The notes: a model not told the origin generated them from the sequence alone. Numbered from the stretch's first letter, positions 59,982 to 64,000 are shown. The stretch is DNA of 64,000 nt from Spirochaetaceae bacterium (GCA_017614995.1 JAGAAX010000039.1:1-64000); one strand, 5' to 3'. A program made the numbers and translations.

Positions 59982-60815
59982 ATGATTTCTCCAGACAAGC
60001 TCTTTCAAATTGAAGGCGGACAGCGCAGGCGGAAACTTGCGCTGTGTTTCGGCGCGCTTGAACGCGATATTGCAGGCACAGCCGAAGCAGGCTGTATCTA
60101 CGACATTAAGACAATGCCGCGGGCAGAATACACCAAAAAGCTTGCCGCCGTTCTTCTTAAAGACCCGCAGATAAGCCAAGCCGCAAAAGACGAGATAAAT
60201 GCGCTTATAAATGCAGAACCCTTTGACGAGCGGCGGCTCTGCAACACTGCGCGCAACCACCTTCTTGCCGTAATCGGCACATTACCTGCCGAATGGGATT
60301 TAATCATTGCTCCGCATAATGCACCTCGCGACGAAAACGGTGCGCTTCTTGCACGCAATTTCTATGACGGTGTACAGGTTTTCGCTGAAGACATACGCTC
60401 GCCTTTTAATTTAGGCTCTATTTTCAGAAGCGCGGAAGCATTCGGCGCAGAAAAAGTGCTGCTCTCGCCTTTCTGCACAGACCCTGCCCACCCGCGCGCA
60501 GTCCGTTCCGCAATGGGCTGCATTGAGTCTATTCCCTGGGAAAGAACTTCTTTAGACGATTTGCCGGACGATATTCCGGTTTTTGCACTTGAAACCGGCG
60601 GAACATCAATAGATGAATTTGTTTTTCCAAAAAAAGGCATTGTCATTCTTGGGTCAGAAGAGCTTGGGTGCAGCCCAAAAGCGCTTGAGAGAGCAACTTA
60701 CGGCTGCGTCACAATTCCAATGACGGGCATAAAAGCTTCTATTAATGTGGGCGTTGCTTTTGGTGTTCTTATGAGCTTCTGGACACAGAAATTAAGGCTT
60801 GACCAATGCAGGTAA
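59982..60815 (+). CDS. TrmH/SpoU-family RNA 2'-O-methyltransferase
   Basis: This is a 277-residue protein. The N-terminal 100 residues are not typical of known SpoU extensions. The C-terminal SPOUT domain has the three motifs: DIRSPFNLGSIFRSAEAFG, ILGSEELGCSP and IPMTGIKASINVGVAFGVL. The target RNA is unknown. Its ATG directly follows the upstream stop, and it overlaps the ATP-grasp gene by 10 bp, so translation of all three is likely coupled. Confidence 0.88.
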   Translation: MISPDKLFQIEGGQRRRKLALCFGALERDIAGTAEAGCIYDIKTMPRAEYTKKLAAVLLKDPQISQAAKDEINALINAEPFDERRLCNTARNHLLAVIGTLPAEWDLIIAPHNAPRDENGALLARNFYDGVQVFAEDIRSPFNLGSIFRSAEAFGAEKVLLSPFCTDPAHPRAVRSAMGCIESIPWERTSLDDLPDDIPVFALETGGTSIDEFVFPKKGIVILGSEELGCSPKALERATYGCVTIPMTGIKASINVGVAFGVLMSFWTQKLRLDQCR

Positions 60816-62020
60816 CGCAAAAACCGGCGATCTTTGCTGCCGGCGCAACAGCCCTTTTCGGTTTAGACGAAATACGGCAAGCCCTTGAATCTTGCGGTTT
60901 TTGCGTCAGCTTTGTAGACGCGCCTTTTATGCGCCCTTTTGCTTCCGCAGAGGAAACCGAAGCCATTTCATTTTCAGCCGGAATAAAATGCCCCGGAAAC
61001 AGCTTTATTATTCCATTAACTGAATATTGGATTTCTTATTGCATTGCAAACGGCGGCGCGAGAATCAGCAGCCGGGCATTGTCGGCTTCGCGCTCAAAAG
61101 TCTTTCTCTACGATGTTCTTACTTCAAAAAATATTGACGTTCCCCAAAACTACGGCTCAAAAGACGAAGCCTTAGACGCTCTTAAAAGCGGAAAAAAAAT
61201 CATCGTTAAGCCGCAGGGGCTTCATTCAGGCTACGGCGTTGAAATTATTGAAAAAGCCGACCCTGCCCTTTTGGAAAAGCATTTTTTATGCGCAGGCACA
61301 ATTACGAACAAAGCCATGCGCATAATGCACATTGAAAACACAGGCGCAATGCTTTCTGAATTTATTGAAGGCACAGAATACAGCGCAGACTGCTTCTGCT
61401 TTAACGGAAGAAAAAGCCTCGTAAGGCTCTGCAAAAAAAACATAGTCTATATCAAGGGCAAGCCCTGCACCGCCACCTGCCAGATTGTCGAGCCTTCGCC
61501 AGAAATAAGCTCTGCCCTGCAAAGCTGGCTTGACGCGCTTTTTGACGGTTCTGACATTTCGTTTGCGCAGTTTGACTTTATAATAGACGGAAAAAACCGG
61601 ATTGTTCCAATTGATTTTGCATCGCGCATTGGCGGCGGAATGACCGAACTTTTGAAAGAGCTGCCATTCAATGTGTATGCGGCTTCTGTAAAAGAGGCTT
61701 CGGCTTCTAGCCTGAAAAAGCTTGAAACCGGCGCGTATTCTAAAATTTTTAGCGACAGCACTTTTGTGTCTGCACCGCTGACACAGCTCAATTATCTTTC
61801 AACCAAGAGCGGCTATATTGTAGACGACAACTTTCCGCTTTATGCCGGAAAGCAGATTATAAACAAACACAAGGGCGACTACGCTATTTCTAATCCTTCA
61901 AGCGTGCAGAGCCGCCTTGCCGTAGTTGTAGCACATTTGCCTGACAGCGAACTTCCGCAAGAGCTTTTAGATTCGCTTCTTCTGACAGAACCGTACATCG
62001 GTGGGAAAGATAAAGTTTAA
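60806..62020 (+). CDS. ATP-grasp domain protein of unknown substrate
   Basis: This is a 404-residue protein. A Rossmann-like N-terminal part precedes the ATP-grasp core: KKIIVKPQGLHSGYGVEII (lysine plus glycine-rich loop), MLSEFIEGTEYSADCFCFN, and FAQFDFIIDGKNRIVPIDF with SRIGGGMTELL. The final metal-binding motif reads IDFASRIGGG rather than the usual ExN, so metal binding may be altered. It resembles carbamoyl-phosphate-synthase-like ligases that join a carboxylate and an amine. The last 46 codons recur in the repeat at 63694-63857. Confidence 0.83.
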   Translation: MQVTQKPAIFAAGATALFGLDEIRQALESCGFCVSFVDAPFMRPFASAEETEAISFSAGIKCPGNSFIIPLTEYWISYCIANGGARISSRALSASRSKVFLYDVLTSKNIDVPQNYGSKDEALDALKSGKKIIVKPQGLHSGYGVEIIEKADPALLEKHFLCAGTITNKAMRIMHIENTGAMLSEFIEGTEYSADCFCFNGRKSLVRLCKKNIVYIKGKPCTATCQIVEPSPEISSALQSWLDALFDGSDISFAQFDFIIDGKNRIVPIDFASRIGGGMTELLKELPFNVYAASVKEASASSLKKLETGAYSKIFSDSTFVSAPLTQLNYLSTKSGYIVDDNFPLYAGKQIINKHKGDYAISNPSSVQSRLAVVVAHLPDSELPQELLDSLLLTEPYIGGKDKV

Positions 62021-62046
62021 AAGCATAAGCTCTGAAACATGCTCCC
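61883..62046. repeat. 164-bp direct repeat, copy 1 (3' end of the ATP-grasp gene)
   Basis: It begins GCTATTTCTAATCC and ends CATGCTCCC. Copy 2 is at 63694-63857, with exactly the same length and about 8 or 9 differences. Copy 1 covers the last codons and 26 bp past the stop. The copies bound the toxin-antitoxin island. Confidence 0.92.
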
Positions 62047-62116
62047 TATCACAAAATGAGCGGCTACAGGTAAAGATAGATAACAAAACACTTGAGATTA
62101 CGTAACTCTATGGCAG

Positions 62117-62519
62117 TTACGGTTTTAGCCAGTTTTCTATTTTAAGTCCGTCAATACGCCTGAAATGCTCTTCGTTGTTTGTTACTAGAACAGCATGATT
62201 TGTAATAGCGCTTGCACCTATGAAAATATCCGCATCTTCAATAAGTTTTCCTTATTCTACGGAGGACTGCATAAATTTGGGCTGCCTGCATAAAATCTGC
62301 ATCAGAAATTGGAATTACAGAAATATGTTTGCAAAAAATTTCAAAATAGTTCTGTAATCTTTTAGACTGACTGTAGAGAATTCCGCGCATAATTTCATAT
62401 TGGACTACATTTGAAATTGCAAATTCATTTTGAAAAAAGACGGAATCAAAATTTGCCACGACAGTTTCATTCCGTTCCAGTAAATAACTTACAATGTTTG
62501 TGTCGAGCATATAAAGCAT
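62117..62519 (-). pseudogene. vapC: VapC PIN-domain toxin, frameshifted
   Basis: The first frame begins MLYMLDTNIVSYLLERNE (first PIN aspartate), carries VVQYEIMRGIL (conserved Glu), and stops after RRIRKTY at 62238. The rest continues in another frame as GKLIEDADIFIGASAI (third acidic cluster), then HAVLVTNNEEHF, ending at 62117. The total of 403 bp equals 134 codons plus one extra base, so a single inserted base near 62258 accounts for the break. The truncated product lacks essential acidic residues and is probably inactive. It lies 1 nt after its antitoxin gene. Confidence 0.85.
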
Positions 62520-62520
62520 T

Positions 62521-62757
62521 TTAGAATCTTTCCTTAAAGTTGATGCGATGATTTCTGATGTCTTCAGCCTCTTCGTGCGTCATTGCTTCGAATATGCTGT
62601 GAAGTTCATTTAAGGCAGATTGTTTTTCCGTTGATATTTTTGTTCCATTAAAATCTTCGTCTAATGCGGTTATAACAAGACGCTGATTGGGGCGAAATCG
62701 AGATGTATCTTCTGCAACACATGTTGAACCGTCAAAATATCCGTTTACTGAAACCAT
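62521..62757 (-). CDS. vapB: VapB-type antitoxin
   Basis: This 78-residue protein begins MVSVNGYFDGSTCVAED, as in small antitoxins with an AbrB or Phd-like N-terminus. Its acidic C-terminus (LNELHSIFEAMTHEEAEDI) is the likely toxin-binding part. GGAGGTCGAT precedes the ATG at 62757; the GTG 12 nt earlier is not needed. It is intact although the toxin gene is broken, as expected from the order of decay in such modules. Confidence 0.8.
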   Translation of the reverse strand: MVSVNGYFDGSTCVAEDTSRFRPNQRLVITALDEDFNGTKISTEKQSALNELHSIFEAMTHEEAEDIRNHRINFKERF

Positions 62758-62770
62758 ATCGACCTCCACT

Positions 62771-62803
62771 CATGTATTATAACACATGCGATTTACATTG
62801 CAA
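62771..62803 (-). promoter_or_regulatory. Promoter and operator-like dyad of vapBC
   Basis: Minus strand: TTGCAA (62803-62798), 16-bp spacer, TATAAT (62781-62776). The dyad CATGT (62771-62775)/ACATG (62784-62788) covers the -10, the usual place for antitoxin autoregulation. Confidence 0.7.
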
Positions 62804-62980
62804 GCTTGAGATTGCCACAAAAGGTAAGGTCACTGAGCTTATTTCTGCCGTTTATAAGCCGAACCCTTCACCGGGGGAAGCCAAGCATAAAATTTAGCCA
62901 CGCATTTTCTCAAATTCACTGATTGTAAACACAACATAGCTTTACAATACACCATTCTTGTTTGCTCATACGGGAATTCC

Positions 62981-63010
62981 TTGACAAATATGGGATTTAT
63001 CACATATTAT
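62981..63010 (+). promoter_or_regulatory. Promoter of the higBA-like pair, with dyad
   Basis: TTGACA (62981-62986), 18-bp spacer, TATTAT (63005-63010). The dyad AATATG (62987-62992) and CATATT (63003-63008) sits in the spacer and overlaps the -10. The ATG at 63017 lies 6 bp after the -10, so the mRNA may be leaderless. The gap 62804-62980 upstream shows no gene. Confidence 0.7.
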
Positions 63011-63016
63011 TTTAGT

Positions 63017-63373
63017 ATGGATATGTACGACGTACTATTTTATGATTTACCAGACGGTTCAAAACCCGTTAAGGATTTTATGGACACACTTGATGCAAAA
63101 ATGTTTGTTAAAGTTGTAAGAACCATAGATATGCTTAAACAGGTTGGGCCTTCTATGCGGCTTCCATATTCAGAACACCTTGATGACGGAATTTTTGAGA
63201 TTCGTGTAAAACAAGGAACGAACATAACTCGTGTGTTGTATTTCTTCTTTGTGGGTAAAAAAATTATACTTACAAACGGTTTTGTTAAGAAAACACAGAA
63301 AACCCCAAAGAATGAATTAGCATTAGCCAAGAAGTATCGTGACGAATATAAGTCGCGAGGAGGAAAGAAATGA
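63017..63373 (+). CDS. higB: HigB/RelE-superfamily toxin (phage Gp49-like)
   Basis: This 118-residue protein has the Gp49-like pattern: YDLPDGSKPVKDFMDTLD, then IDMLKQVGPSMRLPYSEHLDDGIFEIRV, RVLYFFFVGKKIILTNGFVKKTQKTPKNEL and AKKYRDEY. Such toxins cleave mRNA in the ribosome. The start at 63017 (or 63023) has no Shine-Dalgarno; a TTG at 62981 is really the -35 of the promoter. It overlaps the antitoxin gene by 4 nt. Confidence 0.9.
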   Translation: MDMYDVLFYDLPDGSKPVKDFMDTLDAKMFVKVVRTIDMLKQVGPSMRLPYSEHLDDGIFEIRVKQGTNITRVLYFFFVGKKIILTNGFVKKTQKTPKNELALAKKYRDEYKSRGGKK

Positions 63374-63648
63374 CAGATTTTGATGAATATGTTGCAGAAA
63401 AACTTAAAGACCCTGAATTTAAAGCTGAATACGATGCTCTTGAACCTGAATATGCAATCATTCAAGCAATGATTGATGCACGCAAAGAAAGCGGTCTTAC
63501 CCAAAAAGAACTTGCTGAAAAAACTGGAATCAATCAGGCGGACATCAGTAAGCTTGAACGTGGAAATGCGAATCCCTCGCTTAGAACGCTTAAACGTCTT
63601 GCTGCTGGCATGGGGTGTACTCTCAAAGTTGAATTTGCAAGGATGTAG
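63370..63648 (+). CDS. higA: HigA-type XRE antitoxin
   Basis: This 92-residue protein has a C-terminal XRE helix-turn-helix (RKESGLTQKELAEKTGINQA, then DISKLERGNANPSLRTLKR) and an N-terminal helical part that should bind the toxin. The order toxin first, antitoxin second is that of higBA. GGAGG lies in the overlapping toxin 3' end. It would repress the shared promoter by binding the AATATG/CATATT dyad. Confidence 0.92.
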   Translation: MTDFDEYVAEKLKDPEFKAEYDALEPEYAIIQAMIDARKESGLTQKELAEKTGINQADISKLERGNANPSLRTLKRLAAGMGCTLKVEFARM

Positions 63649-63693
63649 CAACATAATCGTTAGTTCATCGGGAGAATTATTGATTCGATAAAT

Positions 63694-63857
63694 GCTATTT
63701 CTAATCCTTCAAGCGTGCAGAGCCGCCTTGCCGTAGTTGTAGCGCATTTGCCTGACACCGAACTTCCGCAAAAGCTTTTAGATTCGCTTCTTCTTGCAGA
63801 ACCGTACATCGGTGGGAAAGATAAAGCTTAAAACCATAAGCTCAGAAACATGCTCCC
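63694..63857. repeat. 164-bp direct repeat, copy 2 (ATP-grasp 3'-end fragment)
   Basis: It matches 61883-62046 base for base apart from about 8 or 9 changes. The frame is intact and reads AISNPSSVQSRLAVVVAHLP, then a stop, with a few changed residues compared with copy 1 (for example DTE for DSE). There is no start codon or ribosome binding site, so it is a gene fragment. Confidence 0.92.
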
Positions 63858-64000
63858 GGCGTGTTTGTGCCAAAGCCTCGCAGTGACTCCCTTTAGTGTC
63901 AAGGCGAGTTTTGTCCCGTCCTCGCCTGCTGAAACTTTTTGATATTATAATTTCATAATTTTTTGGATTGTCTTATCACAGATTTCTGAGACAGTTTTTA
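63858..64000. other. Non-coding end of window
   Basis: A small hairpin GGCGAG/CTCGCC lies near 63903-63926. An ATTATA near 63947 could be a -10 on the minus strand. No gene is evident in these 143 bp. Confidence 0.5.

Follow-up and report, generated by a model that had tools for sequence, protein, structure and literature searches.

How chromosomal toxin-antitoxin (TA) pairs that are accompanied by no mobile element enter a genome is an open question, and it is posed by a locus of a Spirochaetaceae bacterium (GCA_017614995.1), a gut relative of Treponema, in which a broken vapBC pair and a higBA-like pair lie between two copies of the 3' end of a gene encoding an ATP-grasp protein. The window, i.e. 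the whole stretch of 64,000 nucleotides that was analysed, covers contig C16 (191 kb) from position 1 to 64000; the draft genome (G000) has 3.05 Mb in 64 contigs. Relatives were searched for in 8 genomes of the genus, G000 among them. We consider it probable (at roughly 0.6) that small accessory modules, in many cases TA pairs, enter a hotspot at this place without an integrase or transposase, and that the repeat is the scar of one-sided homologous plus illegitimate recombination. Recurrent scars of this kind around TA pairs, together with insert-free relatives, would, if true, make the route of entry testable.

The original prediction had interpreted the locus as an element that entered at the 3' end of a host gene and brought its own gene end, as integrating elements do. 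The underlying observation was confirmed, and the interpretation as a whole is partly supported.

The 164-bp repeat and the cargo between its copies

The host gene, the two repeat copies and the cargo are arranged as follows:

60806-62020, plus strand: gene for the ATP-grasp protein (404 amino acids) with the duplicated 3' end (open reading frame (ORF), Pfam, relatives)
61883-62046, plus strand: repeat copy 1, the ATP-grasp 3' end with its stop codon and 26 bp downstream (self-BLAST)
62117-62519, minus strand: vapC toxin gene, frameshifted, with a 93-amino-acid ORF at 62238-62519 and the rest in another frame (PIN domain, E 2e-6)
62521-62757, minus strand: vapB-type antitoxin gene (ORF; no Pfam hit; linkage to vapC in relatives over 62123-62787)
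62862-62933, minus strand: relic of 72 bp from a third gene, of which it is the 3' end (...SEFEKMRG stop); the open frame goes on in G007
62954-63683, plus strand: extent of the higBA module matching contig C10 of genome G269 (78.6% over 737 columns)
63020-63373, plus strand: higB-like toxin gene, Gp49/RelE-type (Pfam Gp49, E 2e-25)
63370-63648, plus strand: higA-like antitoxin gene, Xre-type helix-turn-helix (HTH) (Pfam HTH_3, E 1e-15)
63684-63693, no strand: junction between the cargo and the displaced gene end (homology to G269 stops at 63683; gene-end homology starts at 63691-63694)
63694-63857, plus strand: repeat copy 2, the displaced ATP-grasp 3' end (self-BLAST, relatives)

The two copies, reported earlier as equal in length and about 95% identical, were reproduced exactly: each has 164 bp, and they share 95.1% identity, differing at 8 of 164 sites (self-BLAST E 9e-71). 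Copy 1 comprises the last 45-46 codons of the ATP-grasp ORF, in frame, while copy 2 has no start codon and is open over 45 codons up to a stop of its own, showing 4 amino acid differences, in agreement with the earlier statement that it keeps the reading frame with codon changes. The Pfam matches of the host gene are weak (ATP-grasp_4, E 6e-5; ATP-grasp_3, E 1e-4); its homologues in G007, G001 and G003 share 60-80% amino acid identity with it.

The claim that nothing but the two TA pairs lies between the copies did not hold, since the 72-bp relic of a third gene and a stretch of about 41 bp shared with G007 are also present. The toxin of the first pair is indeed broken: it has 93 amino acids vs 132-133 in four relatives, the lost C-terminal part is found in a different frame, and the match to the NCBIfam VapC family falls under that family's cut-off. 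Both pairs are organized like type II vapBC and higBA systems, i.e. a PIN-domain toxin with an upstream antitoxin and a Gp49-type toxin followed by an Xre-type antitoxin. Unlike a functional vapBC, however, that of the window encodes no intact PIN toxin, as vapC is frameshifted. The higBA-like pair (a Gp49/RelE-type toxin, then an HTH antitoxin) has intact reading frames.

The modules between the copies have different relatives. For the vapBC part (62123-62787), there are relatives in many genomes of a different genus within the family, and the higBA module resembles that of G269. There, the pair (L129) sits between genes of methyltransferase type and helicase type (names given from reading the translations, without a family search) within a putative restriction-modification locus. 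A minus-strand frame at the left edge of higBA in the window starts with MINPIFVKE, as does the helicase-type gene of G269, which suggests that a piece of a G269-like restriction-modification locus came along with higBA. Judged from these matches, the cargo is a patchwork of modules and not a single element. The guanine-cytosine content of the TA modules is 36-37% vs 42-46% in the surroundings. Matches to plasmids and phages (66-73%; one Ruminococcus plasmid and three phage records without annotation) are limited to the higBA-like part, and carriage of the whole insert by a plasmid or phage was thus rejected.

Flanks of the copies and the ATP-grasp/htpG hotspot

Relatives without the insert, whose search had been proposed, exist. 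In G006, a single ATP-grasp end is followed by a palindromic repeat resembling a miniature inverted-repeat transposable element (MITE) and by an HTH gene, and the 1.65-kb insert is absent. The corresponding features of the window are:

62034-62046, plus strand: left terminal stub of the MITE-like palindromic element (GAAACATGCTCCC), which closes copy 1 (comparison with G006 and with copy 2)
62047-62087, plus strand: flank A, common with the G007 sequence after its ATP-grasp gene (BLAST match to G007 reaching 62087; alignment)
63845-63930, plus strand: MITE-like element ending in inverted repeats (CTGAAACATG...), placed as it is behind the single G006 gene end
63945-64000, minus strand: Xre-type HTH gene that leaves the window and extends to contig position 64367

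The body of the MITE-like element is found only after copy 2, with 92% identity over 83 bp to contig C220 of G006 and 87% to a second G006 copy. Copy 1 carries its first 13 bases and then the stretch of about 41 bp shared with G007, and the right edge of the 164-bp repeat falls within the terminal repeat of this element. The HTH gene that follows has a counterpart in G006 at the same place and in the same orientation (42% over 67 amino acids). Since the same repeat and HTH gene follow the single gene end of G006, copy 2 most likely retains the native flank. Comparison with homologues had been suggested as a way to recognize the native copy; the ATP-grasp copies themselves, being sisters, cannot decide this, and it is the flanks that point to copy 2. 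Of the proposed entry at a gene 3' end with an own gene end, the part that stands is the intact end on the cargo side and the displaced copy with its native flank.

An assembly artefact, conceivable in a draft genome of 64 contigs, was rejected and is hardly credible: the copies differ at 8 of 164 sites, their distinct flanks are each matched in an independent assembly, and comparable structures occur in other assemblies.

The place itself varies among the relatives. In G001 and G003, the distance from the ATP-grasp gene to htpG is about 300 bp or less; in the window's genome it is about 4.9 kb, with a second vapBC near htpG. G007 carries an AAA/DUF4143 ATPase gene instead of vapBC, followed by the gene whose end is the 72-bp relic of the window, and on a separate contig a 61-bp second ATP-grasp end adjoins a different vapBC beside htpG. 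Given this different cargo and the insert-free relatives, the ATP-grasp/htpG intergenic region is one hotspot, the cargo of which differs by species.

The htpG-adjoining vapBC of the window's genome lies past the window (contig C16, 66113-66762; L013, 8114-8763) and is apparently intact. A terminator-like hairpin flanks it on both sides (53 bp, 87% between the copies), and one copy lies 3' of htpG. The same hotspot also contains a gene for a BspA-type leucine-rich repeat lipoprotein (contig C16, 64412-65668; L013, 6413-7669), likewise past the window.

Similar scars at other loci

The repeat pattern is not specific to the ATP-grasp locus. In the window's genome, the flanks of 13 VapC-type and 4 Gp49-type loci were scanned for direct repeats, and additional ones came to light. 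On contig C58, a vapBC is flanked by the duplicated 5' end (124 bp) of a membrane-protein gene, the copies being 85% identical, and this insert is absent from G007 and G006. Copy 2 at this locus is 94% identical to G007 (the gene 91-100% per 100-bp window). Copy 1 reaches only 86%, or about 85% with its upstream flank, and at five sites it agrees with G001 and not with the rest. Judged from these unequal identities and G001-shared sites, the C58 copies act like different alleles, as would be expected if a gene allele and its cargo had been imported in a one-sided event. The view of a diverged allele in place of a fresh duplication fits C58 well; at the ATP-grasp locus, the copies are sisters. 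At the cargo-side edge of C58 copy 1, the gene and a dispersed repeat have about 9 bp in common (TGYCGGTTT).

The C58 vapBC is 94% identical to that of G001, and the adjoining gene only about 72%. This similarity between species at the same place speaks for exchange at allelic sites, as in the case of a passive circle, in which recombination between the repeats excises the cargo with one gene end and the circle re-enters the same gene of another cell by a single crossover. Direct repeats around the cargo permit such excision; the origin of the first duplication and the 15% divergence of the C58 copies are left unexplained by it, and we regard this route as very unlikely.

Three further loci show comparable structures: (i) on contig C6 (L099, 12168-13109), one gene for a signal-peptide protein, with no Pfam family and not a TA gene, is flanked by the duplicated 3' end (116 bp, 99%) of its neighbour, and the site is empty in G007; (ii) a vapBC of G001 has an exact 24-bp target duplication, present in single copy in G006 (one mismatch); and (iii) a vapBC of G003 lies between pieces derived from the 3' part of the gene upstream and from downstream DNA (about 95%). 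By locus, the duplications measure 24, 116, 124 and 164 bp, plus gene-end pieces of 81-127 bp, and the targets are a gene 3' end, a gene 5' end or intergenic DNA. The presence of similar scars at other sites suggests that gene pairs enter the chromosome without an integrase of their own, duplicating a stretch of the target.

This variety bears on the possibility that a site-specific integrating element, with its integrase acting in trans or lost, is directed at gene ends and supplies a gene end of its own, in the manner of tRNA-gene islands. As in tRNA and tmRNA islands, the incoming 3' end would restore the host gene and the displaced old end lies distally, as such an element would have it. 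Unlike in these islands, no integrase, RNA gene or constant core is present and the target varies. In agreement with the earlier statement that the insert lacks an integrase, none was found in or next to it among the ORFs and Pfam matches of 61.8-67 kb (an integrase in trans was not searched for). No tRNA, tmRNA or Rfam hit was obtained near the insert, by which an RNA-gene attB was rejected, and no common sequence was seen on inspection among the 24-, 116-, 124- and 164-bp duplications. The lengths vary, and so do the targets, among which are a gene 5' end and intergenic DNA; the cargo ends differ between loci, and the cargo is composite. This explanation is therefore improbable, and the integrating-element part of the original prediction, read as implying an att-like site, is not supported.

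Several other direct repeats were considered as scars and set aside. Those of L098 and L110 are dispersed repeats, that of L111 reflects ABC-transporter paralogs, that of L051 is a duplicated terminator hairpin, and that of L060 looks like similar genes side by side. The repeat of L057 sits inside vapB and a vapB relic; this locus (G000:C10, 1305-2045) contains a vapBC followed by the relic of a second vapB (53 bp, 92%).

Route of entry

Recombination, which the original prediction had named as a possible route, is judged likely. In the reading that we prefer, the incoming DNA would have consisted of an ATP-grasp end and cargo. On one side, homologous recombination within the ATP-grasp gene would have joined it; on the other, the join would have been illegitimate, immediately before the resident gene end. 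Because the join fell upstream of it, the resident end would have been kept as a displaced second copy next to its old flank (the MITE-like element and the HTH gene), and the ATP-grasp gene would now use the end adjoining the cargo. The vapBC and higBA parts of the cargo may postdate the formation of the duplication. What the data show directly is the repeat, the relative without an insert, the exchanged cargo of G007, the patchwork nature of the cargo and comparable duplications of other targets elsewhere; we infer the recombination route, the order of the steps and the origin of the DNA from a relative.

Two known processes resemble this pattern. For restriction-modification genes, insertion is reported to duplicate the target over a long and variable length, 'in the order of 100 bp' (Nobusato et al. 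2000, Gene 259:99, as described in PMC1643837 and PMC3874152), and, according to the latter two papers, such insertions were described between related strains, e.g. Helicobacter pylori 26695 and J99. The likeness lies in a small selfish-type gene complex without a transposase, absent from a relative and bounded by long variable target repeats. The cargo is missing at the orthologous place in other species, not strains (from G006 at the ATP-grasp locus, from G007 and G006 at C58, from G007 at C6), and the target repeats of about 100 bp (164, 124 and 116 bp) are single-copy in the G006/G007 alignments. Unlike restriction-modification insertions, those seen here carry mostly vapBC or higBA in Treponema-like species (at one locus neither but another gene, and at none restriction-modification genes), and the comparison is between species, with copies differing by 1 to 15%.

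The second process, homology-facilitated illegitimate recombination (HFIR), combines one-sided homology with an illegitimate join at 3-10 bp of microhomology (PMC3240628), and it was proposed for the effector-immunity arrays of Vibrio cholerae, which keep displaced old genes (PMC5361080). With HFIR, the present loci would have in common a one-sided homology anchor, which is supported at C58 and not resolvable at the ATP-grasp locus, and an illegitimate join. As in HFIR, the old part of the gene is kept but displaced beyond the inserted module, and the copies at C58 look like alleles of different strains. In contrast to laboratory HFIR, duplications are seen here, and a short match only at the C58 edge. 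We favour HFIR as the molecular mechanism and use the term insertion with long target duplication for the pattern.

The association with TA pairs was evaluated for VapC modules with enough flank, a direct repeat across the module with an ungapped score of 16 or more being counted; the ATP-grasp locus is outside this set, because higBA falls beyond the flank used. Direct repeats span 7 of 36 VapC modules in the genus vs 7 of 207 single genes of 360-1500 bp (p=0.0014), the control genes coming from one genome only and the score cut-off having been picked after the scores were seen. Among the seven positives, one (L051) depends on a terminator-like hairpin and another (L052) on a promoter-like stretch. 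Among random placements in a 361-kb sample of the window's genome, taken as stretches, a direct repeat was found in 9 of 500 (p 2.5e-5 vs the VapC modules), and among mismatched flanks in 3 of 350.

The limits of this count weigh against the preferred reading, as do the following points. The non-TA gene of C6 shows that the duplication process is not TA-specific. As a rule, the HFIR products described have lost sequence by deletion and have not duplicated it (PMC3240628). No microhomology was recognised at the junction of the ATP-grasp locus, donor sequence for comparison being lacking. At this locus, 15 sites join copies 1 and 2 as sisters and 1 contradicts this, and import of a diverged allele is thus not demonstrated there. 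Finally, the partial second copy of G007 hints that the duplication may predate the TA cargo.

Being sisters, the two copies of the ATP-grasp locus do not distinguish between a close within-species donor allele, an older duplication evened out by gene conversion and a plain duplication. The identity profile along the ATP-grasp gene, checked for a crossover point, has no clear step.

The main rival is a duplication that was there first and received the TA modules later. According to this two-step history, the ATP-grasp end was duplicated or took up an insertion early on, in an event common to G007, which gave rise to flank A and the two gene ends; gene conversion then held the copies of each genome alike, and vapBC and higBA came later as unrelated modules. 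G007 likewise has two gene ends, flank A and the third-gene end; over the last 61 bp the window's own copies pair with each other at 3 sites, and those of G007 pair at those sites too; and the cargo is composite. However, the second copy of G007 has just 61 bp, a different left edge and a place on a separate contig, and independent events would yield the same pattern. We consider this history rather unlikely, and one-sided entry with displacement of the resident gene end remains the preferred explanation.

A wider claim, that TA modules of this Treponema group are self-standing, transposase-free mobile units leaving target duplications of 24-164 bp, and that the restriction-modification type of route is general for addiction modules, is put forward tentatively and is open to considerable doubt. 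If true, TA pairs would join restriction-modification genes as units inserting with long target duplications. TA families, hotspot and recombination route each belong to a known kind; new is the repeated association of vapBC with 24-164 bp target duplications in one Treponema group, and no report of such duplications for TA pairs was found in open-access papers.

Dispersed repeats occur at several of the loci compared. The MITE-like palindromic repeat with CTGAAACATG ends is dispersed in G006 and G001 (L017, L036, L035, L037) and occurs once in the window's genome. A second dispersed repeat (TGYCGGTTTTTG...GCGGCACTTTTCGCCG...GTTGCGAAAAGA) was found in L098 (14939-16230), L110 (204-4422) and L048 (1143-1218); it flanks an Rpn/PD-(D/E)XK nuclease-like gene in L098 and makes up a junction at the C58 vapBC. 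In addition, L036 (690-1030; G006:C151) contains a tandem array with units of about 40 bp (AAACCACATTTTGTGGTTTGCTCACTTCAAGTG...).

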